DNA from: a virus
Virus record (IMG/VR): IMGVR_UViG_3300032116_001006
Location: 1-28,982 of that record
DNA: 28,982 nt
Strand: one strand, 5' to 3'
Every line of letters begins with the position of its first letter. Positions within the stretch are counted from its first letter, which is position 1. The position numbers and the translations under genes are program-made. Positions 2,660 through 6,571 of this stretch are shown piece by piece. Under the pieces are notes generated by a model. That model was not told the DNA's origin. It did no database searches and saw nothing but the letters and a program-made list of their open reading frames with translations.

Positions 2660-2844
2660 CGCGCCTCCTGCCACCGCAGCCGTTGCACCCGCCCCGTCAC
2701 CACCAACCGCGCCGCCTCCTCCTGCTCGACGCGGGCCACCTCCGCGGCAGGCCACGGCTGGGCGAGGTGCTGGAGGCGCATCCCCACGCGCTCGTGCCGC
2801 TCGGCGACGGCCTCGGCGGGCCACCCGGCGGTGAGGCGGCTCAT
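2656..2844 (-). CDS. Small helical hypothetical protein
   Basis: A 62-residue protein from ATG 2844, which overlaps the queC stop (2841-2843). Its own stop overlaps the initiator ATG (2657-2659). Both junctions are ATGA, so it is translationally coupled on both sides. It is rich in Ala, Arg and Glu (EVARVEQEEAARLV), probably mostly helical, with no Cys and no membrane segment. No family recognised. The position suggests an accessory replication or regulatory factor, but nothing in the sequence proves that. Confidence 0.6.
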   Translation of the reverse strand: MSRLTAGWPAEAVAERHERVGMRLQHLAQPWPAAEVARVEQEEAARLVVTGRVQRLRWQEAR

Positions 2845-3422
2845 GCGGCACCCATCGCCGCGCGACGCGCCTTGCACGAGTTGCAGCGCCCGCACTGGTG
2901 CGCCCGATCCGGCTCGTAGCACGACCACGTCCGATCGAGGTCGACACCCAGTCGACGGGCCAGCGCCACCACCTCCGCCTTACGCAGCAGCATCAGCGGG
3001 GCACGCACCCCGACACCGCACGATGCGCGGGACAGCCGATCGAGCGCGTCCACGAACGCGGGGCGACAGTCGTGGTACTCGGCGAAGTCGTCCCCGATCG
3101 CGCCGAACCAGACCTCCGAAGCGCGACGCGCGGCGGCCACGTTCAACGCCACGCCGAGCAGCGCGAGGTTGCGGCCGGGCAGGACGCGCGGCCCATCGAC
3201 ACCGACCCCGGTCTGCATCGACCCGTCCAGCATCAACCTGCGTTCGACGAGCTCGGCATCATTACGGACGGCCCATCCGCGAACGGTCCGCACCTCATCG
3301 AGATAGGCTGGCTGCCCGAAGTTGATGAACACCACGCACGCAAGGCGGTCTTGACCTCGAGCCATCTCCGCCAGCGTCGTAGAGTCCACCCCGCCCGACA
3401 TCAGCACAACGACATCACGCAT
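2841..3422 (-). CDS. queC: QueC, 7-cyano-7-deazaguanine (preQ0) synthase
   Basis: A 193-residue ATP-dependent ligase of the PP-loop family. QueC converts 7-carboxy-7-deazaguanine to preQ0 with ATP and ammonia. The ATP-binding PP-loop is SGGVDS (9-14). The zinc site near the C-terminus is the canonical C-x8-C-x2-C-x2-C (Cys168, 177, 180, 183). It is somewhat shorter than typical bacterial QueC (about 220-230). ATG 3422 was chosen because it begins directly at the PP-loop strand (MRDVVVLMSGG). The gene overlaps the end of the DpdA-like gene by 8 nt, so the two are coupled. QueD, QueE and FolE are not visible in the window. A phage QueC beside a transglycosylase points to DNA modification rather than tRNA queuosine. 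Confidence 0.88.
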   Translation of the reverse strand: MRDVVVLMSGGVDSTTLAEMARGQDRLACVVFINFGQPAYLDEVRTVRGWAVRNDAELVERRLMLDGSMQTGVGVDGPRVLPGRNLALLGVALNVAAARRASEVWFGAIGDDFAEYHDCRPAFVDALDRLSRASCGVGVRAPLMLLRKAEVVALARRLGVDLDRTWSCYEPDRAHQCGRCNSCKARRAAMGAA

Positions 3423-4032
3423 AAGTCGCTCCAAGGTGAAGCTGGCGCACGGCGGCATCCAGCCGGGGGAGGTTGCAGGCGAAGCGAGACACGCTCGACC
3501 CGTCGAAGCTTGAGGCGCCTGCGTCTTGGCACAGGCGGATCCGCCGAACTGTGTTGACGCGCAGCACGTGGCACCACGCGCCATGCTCTCGAGCCAGGGC
3601 GCCCCAGGCGCGCGCGGTTGCCTCCTTCCACTCGGTCGAGCCGCCGACCGCAACGCCGACGCGCCCGCCTATGTGGGGCGACACGTCGCCTGGGGTCATG
3701 CCATCCTGCACCGCGAGCAACACGCGGGGGGCCTGGTCGAGCAGTCGCGGAAGCCACGCGAGCGACATACGCAGCGACTCGTGACCACCCGCCACGATGT
3801 CCGGGGCCACGACGAAATCGGCCCCAGCCCCGAGCGCGTCCACGGCGCGCACGAACGCGGCCACATCGAACGGCGATCCTTGCTGATGTGCCGTCCACGC
3901 GCCATTGTCGAGCGCGTACCGGAAGCCCTCGGTCCGCTGCACTCCAGTCGCCGAGACCAGCAGGCGCCACCCCGCTTCGCGCAAGGCGTCCAGGTTGCGC
4001 CGGGTGCCGGTCCGGCTGGCGTAGGCGATCAT
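3415..4032 (-). CDS. dpdA: Short DpdA-like 7-deazaguanine DNA transglycosylase (TGT superfamily)
   Basis: A 205-residue protein beginning MIAYASRTGTRRNLDALREA. It carries the blocks I associate with small phage tRNA-guanine-transglycosylase-like proteins: LDNGAW (41-46), APDIVAGG (76-83), AVQDGMTP (107-114), a glycine-rich substrate loop VGGSTEW (129-135), HVLRVN (155-160) and SSFDGSS (174-180, with a candidate catalytic Asp). DpdA enzymes exchange guanine in DNA for preQ0 or related bases. It is much shorter than tRNA TGTs (about 370) and lacks their C-terminal CxCxxC zinc site, as expected for the short phage branch. ATG 4032 overlaps the upstream stop (ATGA), and the 3' end overlaps queC by 8 nt. 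Assignment rests on motifs and the queC neighbour. A diverged TIM-barrel protein of other function is possible. Confidence 0.68.
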   Translation of the reverse strand: MIAYASRTGTRRNLDALREAGWRLLVSATGVQRTEGFRYALDNGAWTAHQQGSPFDVAAFVRAVDALGAGADFVVAPDIVAGGHESLRMSLAWLPRLLDQAPRVLLAVQDGMTPGDVSPHIGGRVGVAVGGSTEWKEATARAWGALAREHGAWCHVLRVNTVRRIRLCQDAGASSFDGSSVSRFACNLPRLDAAVRQLHLGATYA

Positions 4033-4382
4033 CGTCCCCACCCCAGCGGCCACAGCCGACGCGCCAGCGGCAGCAGGTCCGCCAGCCGCACCACCACCAC
4101 CCACTCGCCACGGTCCAACCGCGCGAGCACCCACGGAATCCGCCCCGAGGTGCCCGCGTCGTCGATGGCCTGCCGCAGCGCGGCCCACAGGCTGATCGCC
4201 TTGCCTCGCTTGACCTCGCAGTGCGTGCCGGGGAGGTCGTCGCAGTCGATGTCGGGCGCCTCGGAGCCGCCAAACCGCGTCTGACCGATGGTGCGGCGCC
4301 ACAGAAACCCCGTCACCTCGGAGACGGTGTCCGCTGCGTCTCTCTCCCCGTTCGCGCCTTTCCTGCGCTGCATCGCGCCCAT
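4029..4382 (-). CDS. PD-(D/E)XK nuclease, Holliday junction resolvase-like
   Basis: A 117-residue protein. RRKGANGERDAA (6-17) resembles the N-terminal Glu motif of archaeal/phage Hjc-type resolvases (Glu13). PD at 43-44 and EVK at 56-58 complete a PD-(D/E)XK active site. The size fits single-domain junction resolvases, which would process recombination or replication intermediates. ATG 4382 is preferred over ATG 4373 because GGGGGAGG lies 4 nt upstream and the ATG forms TGATG with the previous stop. It overlaps the DpdA-like gene by ATGA. The family level (Hjc, VRR-Nuc or other) is uncertain. Confidence 0.7.
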   Translation of the reverse strand: MGAMQRRKGANGERDAADTVSEVTGFLWRRTIGQTRFGGSEAPDIDCDDLPGTHCEVKRGKAISLWAALRQAIDDAGTSGRIPWVLARLDRGEWVVVVRLADLLPLARRLWPLGWGR

Positions 4383-5708: not shown

Positions 5709-5950
5709 CAGCGCACCCCTTCGCAGGCCGCGCGGGCCGCCTCGCCAGCGTCCAGCCCAAGCGCATCGGCAACCGCCAGGACGGTGGCCATCCGGCCGCG
5801 GAGGTGGCCGTGCACCATCCTGGACAGCGTGGAGCGATCCACCCCCGCATCCCGGGCGACGGAGGAGATCGTCACGCGCTCTCCTCGTGCCCGAGCCTCT
5901 TCCTCGCGCCTCGTGATTGCGGCCCGCAGGATCTCCGATAGCGTCACCAT
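5708..5950 (-). CDS. Cro-like helix-turn-helix regulator, first gene of the leftward operon
   Basis: An 80-residue protein. The HTH reads VTISSVARDAGVDRSTLSRM (about 26-45), followed by a typical wing and last helix (MATVLAVADALGL). ATG 5950 has a GGGGGGA Shine-Dalgarno. The gene is divergent from the repressor-like gene at 6030. The 79-bp gap holds two copies of GTGCG-N5-CGCAC, so it probably lies under the same switch. The size and position fit a Cro/CII-like early regulator. Confidence 0.7.
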   Translation of the reverse strand: MVTLSEILRAAITRREEEARARGERVTISSVARDAGVDRSTLSRMVHGHLRGRMATVLAVADALGLDAGEAARAACEGVR

Positions 5951-5958
5951 GTCCCCCC

Positions 5959-5994
5959 GTGTGCGGCTCTCGCACATGTGCGACTCCCGCACAC
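5959..5994. promoter_or_regulatory. Divergent operator: two GTGCG-N5-CGCAC sites forming a 36-bp symmetric element
   Basis: Sites at 5961-5975 and 5978-5992 each read GTGCG-N5-CGCAC. Between them TCGCACATGTGCGA (5970-5983) is a perfect palindrome, and the outer arms GTGTGCGG (5959-5966) and CCGCACAC (5987-5994) are inverted repeats with the same centre. It sits between the divergent Cro-like and repressor-like genes. A weak leftward promoter candidate (TTGCGC-N17-TAGTGT on the minus strand) would place its -10 box beside the element. Confidence 0.7.
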
Positions 5995-6029
5995 TAGCGC
6001 GCTCTCCATGGAGGCGCAATGGGGAACCC

Positions 6030-6407
6030 GTGCCCGCCCTCTCCGCCCAGCTCCGCGCCGCCCGAAAGGATGCCGGCCTGTCCCAGGTCGACCTTGCCGC
6101 GGCCCTCGGCTACGAGCGCCACAGCGACGTCAGCCGCATAGAGCGAGGCGAGCAGGCGCCGCGCTCGCTCGATGTGGTCGACCGCTGGGCCGAGCTCTGC
6201 GGACGCGAGGTGCACCTGTCCCGCGTGGGCGAGGTGCACGCCGTCGCTGCGGCCGTCGCGTCAGCGGACGACCGGCACCGCGCCCTCGTGGCCCGCCTGC
6301 TCGTCGCGCTCCCGACCCTCCCCGATGCGCTGGTAGAGGGCCTCGAGCACGACCTGGACCTGTGGGAGTCGCGCTACGGCTCTTCGAGTGCTCGCGCGCG
6401 CACGTAG
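6030..6407 (+). CDS. HTH (Xre/CI-like) repressor candidate
   Basis: A 125-residue protein. The N-terminal HTH is clear: LRAARKDAGLSQVDLAAALG then DVSRIERGEQAPRSLDVVDR, an Xre/CI-type fold in about the first 65 residues. The C-terminal half is helical. No LexA-like Ser/Lys protease domain is visible, so RecA-induced self-cleavage is unlikely. GTG 6030 was chosen because it begins the HTH domain and has GGGGAA a few bases upstream. The ATG codons at 6008 and 6019 are not in this frame. It is the only plus-strand gene in the immunity region and probably keeps both early operons off. Confidence 0.7.
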   Translation: MPALSAQLRAARKDAGLSQVDLAAALGYERHSDVSRIERGEQAPRSLDVVDRWAELCGREVHLSRVGEVHAVAAAVASADDRHRALVARLLVALPTLPDALVEGLEHDLDLWESRYGSSSARART

Positions 6408-6571
6408 GCGACCGCCCACGAGACCTCCGCCAGCGCCGCGCGATCCAGCCCCGTGAGATCGTGGCGCAGCGCCGCGGCAAGCTCCGCCCGTCGTAGGCCT
6501 CGGTAATCCGGGTGCGCCTCCGCGGCGTCGCGTTGGCGTTGTAGCGGCACGATCGACAGCTTCCGGTGCAC
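6374..6571 (-). CDS. Small hypothetical protein, convergent with the repressor gene
   Basis: A 65-residue protein from GTG 6571, which follows GAGGGGGA. Codon use is good throughout (LSIVPLQRQRDAAEAHPDYR, then LDRAALAEVSWAVAYVRARA). It is mostly helical with no known motif. Its 3' end overlaps the repressor 3' end by 34 bp, tail to tail. Its upstream region holds the second operator pair and tandem TTGACA boxes at 6590-6606 on the minus strand. Transcripts would be antisense to the repressor if they do not stop. An antirepressor or immunity accessory role is only a guess. Confidence 0.5.
   Translation of the reverse strand: MHRKLSIVPLQRQRDAAEAHPDYRGLRRAELAAALRHDLTGLDRAALAEVSWAVAYVRARALEEP

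Follow-up and report, generated by a model that had tools for sequence, protein, structure and literature searches.

Modification of phage DNA with deazaguanines by DpdA is already known, also for phages in which the pathway genes are partial or absent (PMC6884629, PMC8306585). The DpdA of phage CAjan was proven by deletion, and Rosebush, the type phage of the genus of Ares, carries dPreQ0 (PMC6884629). The DNA of HVTV-1 contains mainly dPreQ1, made via preQ0, and CP220 DNA is fully modified with dADG (PMC6884629, PMC8306585). Phages that have DpdA and no pathway genes can carry dADG, as seen in 7-11 and MED16, and a host precursor was proposed for them (PMC6884629, PMC8306585); a counter-example is Mycobacteriophage Orion, which encodes DpdA while its DNA is unmodified (PMC6884629). 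The preliminary description of the locus presented here stated that phage systems usually carry FolE, QueD and QueE as well. This is not a general rule, as 76 phages in the list of 182 viruses by Hutinet 2019 have only DpdA (PMC6884629). DpdA2 was reported to lack a conserved His at position 196 (PMC6884629). A QueC-like protein and a TGT-family protein are also paired in type IV CBASS (PMC11996544), where Cap9 conjugates 7-carboxy-7-deazaguanine (CDG) to a protein N-terminus and Cap10 binds the modified N-terminus.

The window, by which we mean the whole analysed stretch of DNA, is an IMG/VR record of 28,982 bases, a linear fragment of a temperate tailed-phage genome. It encodes an integrase, a tape measure protein, a head-tail adaptor, a DnaC-like loader and an Erf-like annealing protein. 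No DNA relative of the window was found in the phage collection by megablast. The features relevant to this study are collected in Table 1. The gene for a 205-aa protein overlaps queC by 8 nt, as the preliminary description had stated, and this overlap suggests that translation of the two genes may be coupled; overlaps of 4 or 8 nt were also seen repeatedly in relatives. On the upstream side the dpdA-like start is overlapped by 4 nt by a nuclease gene, which belongs to the same operon and for which we claim no role in the pathway. FolE, QueD and radical-SAM QueE were searched across the 28,982 bases and, in agreement with the preliminary description, were not found. Since the record is a linear fragment, these genes could sit in the missing part of the phage.

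Table 1. Positions of the two genes, their motifs and the upstream neighbour in the window.
Feature	Position	Strand	Details
QueC	2841..3422	-	ATG at 3422, TGA at 2841, 193 aa
Short DpdA-like (TGT-superfamily) transglycosylase, predicted	3415..4032	-	ATG at 4032, TGA at 3415, 205 aa
8-nt frame overlap, dpdA-like stop and queC start	3415..3422	-	4 or 8 nt in relatives
PDDEXK / RusA-like nuclease, upstream neighbour	4029..4382	-	PF24608 2e-8, phrog_244 3e-14
QueC P-loop SGGVDS	3381..3398	-	Motif table
Zinc site of QueC, C(x)8CxxCxxC with the CY pair	2874..2921	-	Motif table; motif definition from PMC13329287
D42 codon (LDNGAW)	3907..3909	-	In register with the invariant LDSGAFSA Asp of phage DpdA
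D177 codon (SFDG), predicted nucleophile	3502..3504	-	In register with SxDSS of DpdA and FDC of E. coli TGT (D264)

We propose, with a probability of roughly 70%, that the pair is a minimal cassette for 7-deazaguanine modification of DNA, in which CDG from the host would pass through QueC and then enter DNA by base exchange. The host queuosine pathway would supply CDG, and QueC would perform the last base-making step, from CDG to ADG and/or preQ0. By way of a covalent intermediate on an Asp (D177 by prediction), the 205-aa zinc-less enzyme would take guanine out of DNA and fill the site with the deazaguanine base. Phage DNA with deazaguanine would resist some restriction enzymes. We infer that DNA is the substrate, and the identity of the product, the supply by the host and the protection are proposed in the same sense.

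The preliminary description regarded QueC as secure, and our analysis agrees. The protein matched PF06508 with 121.6 bits (cut-off 22; E = 4.1e-35) and has both SGGVDS and the C(x)8CxxCxxC zinc site, which in the window reads CYEPDRAHQCGRCNSC. Its match to TIGR00364 (6e-29, 101 bits) is under the equivalog cut-off; therefore it is a member of the QueC family for which synthesis of preQ0 is not guaranteed. When the LPGRN, YHDC and zinc-site motifs were scored as defined in PMC13329287, P, R and N of the first and Y, D and C of the second were kept. The protein is short (193 aa compared with approximately 222 aa in canonical QueC), and its YxQxHxxE motif is altered to FGQPAYLDE (residues 35-43, window positions 3294-3320), without the His and with one additional residue. 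The QueCs located directly downstream of short DpdA at L006, L007, L013, L016, L017 and L027 have the same alteration, with the His lost, one residue added and often Q/H-P-A. Canonical YxQxHxxE is retained in the QueCs of L009, L014 and L015. The idea that loss of this His marks an amide (ADG) product was rejected, as it is contradicted by two phages: HVTV-1 QueC also lacks the His and CP220 keeps it. Because HVTV-1 and CP220 break such a rule, we leave the product of the window pair between preQ0 and ADG.

The most interesting alternative follows from type IV CBASS, where a QueC-like protein likewise stands beside one of the TGT family. It states that the short QueC acts like Cap9 and the TGT-like protein like Cap10, so that the pair would serve protein deazaguanylation as a phage-borne immune-like or counter-immune system. 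The length of the window QueC is close to the Cap9 median of approximately 185 aa, and, like most QueCs directly downstream of short DpdA, it shows the Y/FxQ(x)5E spacing known from Cap9 (PMC13329287). The PADLOC QueC model matches the window QueC at 2.9e-25, but it scores the QueC of an ordinary preQ0 phage equally (6.8e-25). Further, CD-NTase (PF18144) was detected in 0 of 15 QueC-bearing records, and the zinc site of the window QueC is canonical CY and not the CE of Cap9. The 205-aa protein had no sequence match in PADLOC or the PDB, which weighs neither for nor against kinship with Cap10; the catalytic Asps are conserved throughout its family. Its relatives are paired with QueD, QueE or FolE, which are base makers rather than conjugators. 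We consider protein deazaguanylation unlikely.

The preliminary description presented the 205-aa protein as a short phage DpdA with TGT-superfamily features, and suggested comparing it with DpdA families by profile and with TGT by structure prediction. The protein belongs to phrog_15826 (2e-46), a family without annotated function, and is recognised by none of the Pfam and NCBIfam models. The NCBIfam DpdA model NF041059 did not match it; the proven CAjan DpdA also misses the cut-off of this model (16.9/200 bits). Sub-threshold Pfam matches, among them DUF3151 and AAA_34, were rejected as chance, and so were all matches obtained when the PDB was searched with a sequence profile of the family. 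Ten of 28 relatives match phrog_887 (queuine tRNA-ribosyltransferase; best 1.3e-7), and in the reverse direction DpdAs of the Rosebush lineage match phrog_15826 weakly. We used hhalign to compare the phrog_15826-type family with eight phage DpdAs and obtained P = 95.7 and E = 8.8e-9. For two of the lineages among the eight (CAjan, and Ares of the Rosebush genus), modification of the DNA has been measured. The profile match of the family to E. coli TGT was weak (E = 0.02, P = 2.3).

A TGT-type fold is predicted by the AlphaFold2 model of the protein, which was obtained with a 25-sequence alignment and has a mean pLDDT of 94.2. Its best structural match in the PDB was a tRNA-guanine transglycosylase (Z = 15.2, 200/205 residues, 3.0 A), and TGTs made up 49 of 50 among the structural-alignment matches listed. 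Ribulose-5-phosphate 3-epimerase 1tqj came as a near-tie (Z = 14.8), and therefore the fold alone is not proof of kinship with TGT. Among the matches in a viral structure library were annotated phage queuine tRNA-ribosyltransferases and a protein of Vibrio phage nt-1. The structure search also suggests that the fold is perhaps present as a domain inside larger phage proteins (BFVD A0A0F7L9Z1, 499 aa; A0A6J5LU57, 877 aa, ART-PolyVal-like).

In the hhalign alignment, D42, D78, G130-131, H155 and D177 are in register with the D, D, GG, H and D that the eight phage DpdAs conserve. Each of the 140 distinct homologues has D78, Q109, G131, K136, H155 and D177, and D42 and G130 are each kept in 139. 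D42 is expected to correspond to the Asp of the TGT DSGG motif (E. coli D89). The invariant Q109 stands where the eight aligned DpdAs have an invariant His (PxHxGE block, H132 in CAjan). The tRNA-TGT zinc motif C-x-C-x2-C...H, reported as missing in the preliminary description, is absent from the window protein and from 140/140 homologues. It is also absent from the DpdAs of CAjan, Ares, Bipper and MED16, while E. coli TGT, the positive control, has it. Predicted fold, profile match and residue conservation together place the 205-aa protein among the enzymes of the TGT/DpdA superfamily. Because Gln replaces the His of PxHxGE, we filed it as a separate zinc-less subfamily outside the described DpdA group. 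The earlier assignment thus stands as to relatedness; the protein is a distant relative and does not fall within the DpdA groups of known product. We conclude that the short DpdA-like family is a new zinc-less DpdA subfamily, which would most likely insert preQ0 or ADG in DNA.

The same residues bear on a tRNA-directed activity, in which the mini-TGT would insert preQ0 or another precursor in host or phage tRNA and tune translation during infection. The nearest solved folds are those of tRNA TGTs, and Q109 is closer to the substrate-binding Gln of TGT than to the His of DpdA. However, like phage DpdAs, the protein has neither the zinc site nor the C-terminal region of tRNA TGTs, and no family member has lost H155, which corresponds to the HGFG His of DpdA. 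The much stronger match of profiles to phage DpdA (9e-9 compared with 0.02 for E. coli TGT) also speaks against modification of tRNA, which we regard as quite improbable.

QueC, QueD, QueE and FolE profiles were searched in all frames of 75 distinct viral loci, which were obtained from two viral scans and include the window. One or more of these pathway genes were located close to short DpdA in 39 of the 75 loci: QueC alone in 20, QueD alone in 13, QueC with QueD in 3, and QueC with QueE, QueC with QueD and QueE, and FolE alone in 1 each. The 45 Que matches all shared the strand of the DpdA-like gene and lay at most 613 bp from it, and no Que matches were present elsewhere in 871 kb of viral loci. 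There was no nearby Que gene in the other 36 loci, which counts against the proposed cassette. The DpdA-like/QueC neighbourhood was found in 25/75 loci; given 140 distinct homologues and this adjacency, the pair is more than chance. The Que-gene neighbours of the family fit base supply for nucleic-acid modification. The gene order at L009 is QueC, DpdA, QueD, QueE. At L119 (5513-6603), FolE is directly upstream of short DpdA, and at no other locus is FolE the single pathway partner. When the first 29 viral records and the isolates, many of which are fragments, were searched over their whole length, no FolE was found. At L026 (8001-8614) the DpdA-like gene is split over two frames and the downstream QueC is intact, which indicates a sequencing error or a decayed gene.

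On the tree of the 140 proteins, the QueC label needs at least 4 changes on well-supported branches (most parsimonious approximately 11-12) and the QueD label at least 4 (approximately 11 in total); these counts are rough because many inner branches are poorly supported. Repeated recruitment of differing single steps of the preQ0 pathway therefore fits a phage topping up the pathway of its host, and suggests that partial phage pathways are completed by the host.

The linkage also bears on an eraser, which would reverse the exchange and remove the 7-deazaguanine marks of a host Dpd system, with QueC being incidental. Transglycosylation is reversible in principle, and many family members have no nearby Que gene, but the repeated same-strand linkage to base-making genes favours insertion and makes an eraser very unlikely. 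It is equally hard to believe that the protein is a TIM-barrel enzyme of some unrelated kind, such as an epimerase of sugar phosphates or a phosphodiesterase, with QueC as a coincidental neighbour, an outcome the preliminary description would have counted against itself, since the nearly equal Z of epimerase 1tqj is opposed by DpdA residues in register, an E value of 8.8e-9, the reciprocal PHROG links and the Que neighbourhood.

Homologues were also detected outside viruses. The phrog_15826-type family is present on 166 PLSDB plasmids, 146 of them from Pseudomonas and many of 300-530 kb, and the plasmid copies are annotated as hypothetical proteins (for example L043, 7821-8684, p12939-PER; L036, 5839-6729, pND6-1; L044; L045). 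The plasmid copies that were read keep the conserved catalytic residues, and in most of them the N-terminus is extended by a conserved stretch of approximately 55-60 aa. Further, an alignment-based scan found the family at 61 bacterial-genome loci, mainly in Caballeronia, Paraburkholderia, sphingomonads and Pseudomonas, while a single-protein genome scan gave 0. Que genes were found in the fetched flanks of 0/66 distinct plasmid or genome loci. Full-length QueC is encoded in 23 of 25 carrier genomes, which is not a strong test of host supply because queC is common in bacteria, and PF01242 QueD in only 13, with the gap in sphingomonads. Cellular carriers are thus generally able to make or process the base, as a host-supply model needs. 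Full-length QueC without PF01242 QueD was seen in the sphingomonad genomes L059, L062, L067, L080, L081, L088, L098, L101, L106, L114 and L115, and this gap may mean that QueD was overlooked, that another enzyme takes its part or that these bacteria rely on salvage.

Other genes were noticed near these copies. A PAPS-reductase-family gene lies beside or near many Burkholderiaceae copies (L035, 3605-4744, minus strand; L038, 6744-8549; L048, 6731-8539) and near the DpdA-like copy of Erythrobacter phage R6L (L002, 9463-10506); most of the Pseudomonas copies that were read have no adjacent gene of this family. On a Streptomyces plasmid (L047) a DUF4007-family gene is located a few kb from short DpdA (1147-2163 and 5827-6414), and a BREX-related system with DUF4007 and TGT has been described (PMC12839542).

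It is possible that the family marks plasmid DNA with deazaguanine. Going further, we tentatively suggest, at somewhat below even odds, that a widespread mini-DpdA family in temperate phages and large plasmids marks mobile DNA with 7-deazaguanine from the queuosine pathway of the host, and that phages contribute the one step that is limiting (QueC, QueD, QueE or FolE). The large plasmids meant are Pseudomonas megaplasmids of IncP-2 size and those of Burkholderia/Caballeronia, and sphingomonad genomes are carriers as well. If our reading of the pair is right, phrog_15826 and 'hypothetical protein' annotations conceal DNA-guanine transglycosylases that form a recognisable subfamily and have about two thirds of the length of the phage enzymes characterised so far. 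Base-modified DNA would then be predicted in large plasmids, among them the resistance-carrying megaplasmids of Pseudomonas, as well as in many temperate phages, and phages with QueC only and QueD only should need different host genes. If plasmids encode deazaguanine marking that protects them in a new host, this would be a novel biological role. As the family is largely unannotated, hidden modification of DNA bases may exceed current estimates. We found no paper on the mini-DpdA subfamily, the swapping of single-gene partners or the presence on plasmids, in a search with most subscription journals outside it, and none that describes a search for modified bases in the resistance-carrying Pseudomonas megaplasmids.

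When compared with known systems, the window pair shares with type IV CBASS Cap9/Cap10 the combination of a QueC-like and a TGT-family protein and a short QueC with Q(x)5E spacing. It differs in having no CD-NTase and a canonical CY zinc site, and in a family linked to QueD, QueE and FolE. Bacterial and archaeal Tgt have the fold, the position of the nucleophilic Asp and the GG loop in common with the window protein, which is approximately 170 residues shorter, has no zinc subdomain and carries the DpdA-type His. A few distant family members are already annotated as DpdA-like in mycobacteriophages. Fishburnevirus mycobacteriophage GreaseLightnin gp55 and Arthrobacter phage Aoka gp40, both with this annotation, belong to the same family (28-35% identity, approximately 205 aa); QueC and QueD were not found in their records, and the pairing with QueC belongs to the window-type branch. 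Phages with DpdA only, namely Salmonella phage 7-11, Pantoea phage MED16 and Mycobacterium phage Orion, are similar in that the base would come from the host and in having a small singleton DpdA (261 aa in MED16), whereas the window phage adds QueC and its protein is of another family, phrog_15826.

The phage DpdAs of Rosebush, CAjan and 9g (phrog_887, phrog_7068) have in common with the window protein the TGT superfamily, the absence of the tRNA-TGT zinc motif and the aligned D/D/GG/H/D, and both are in operons with preQ0 genes. The window protein is shorter, with 205 aa compared with 306-357 aa in CAjan, Ares and Bipper and 261-357 aa in all fetched DpdAs, and lies below the usual recognition by BLAST, Pfam and NCBIfam. 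Its family has Gln in place of the His that is invariant in the eight aligned DpdAs, and is usually accompanied by one Que gene instead of all four.
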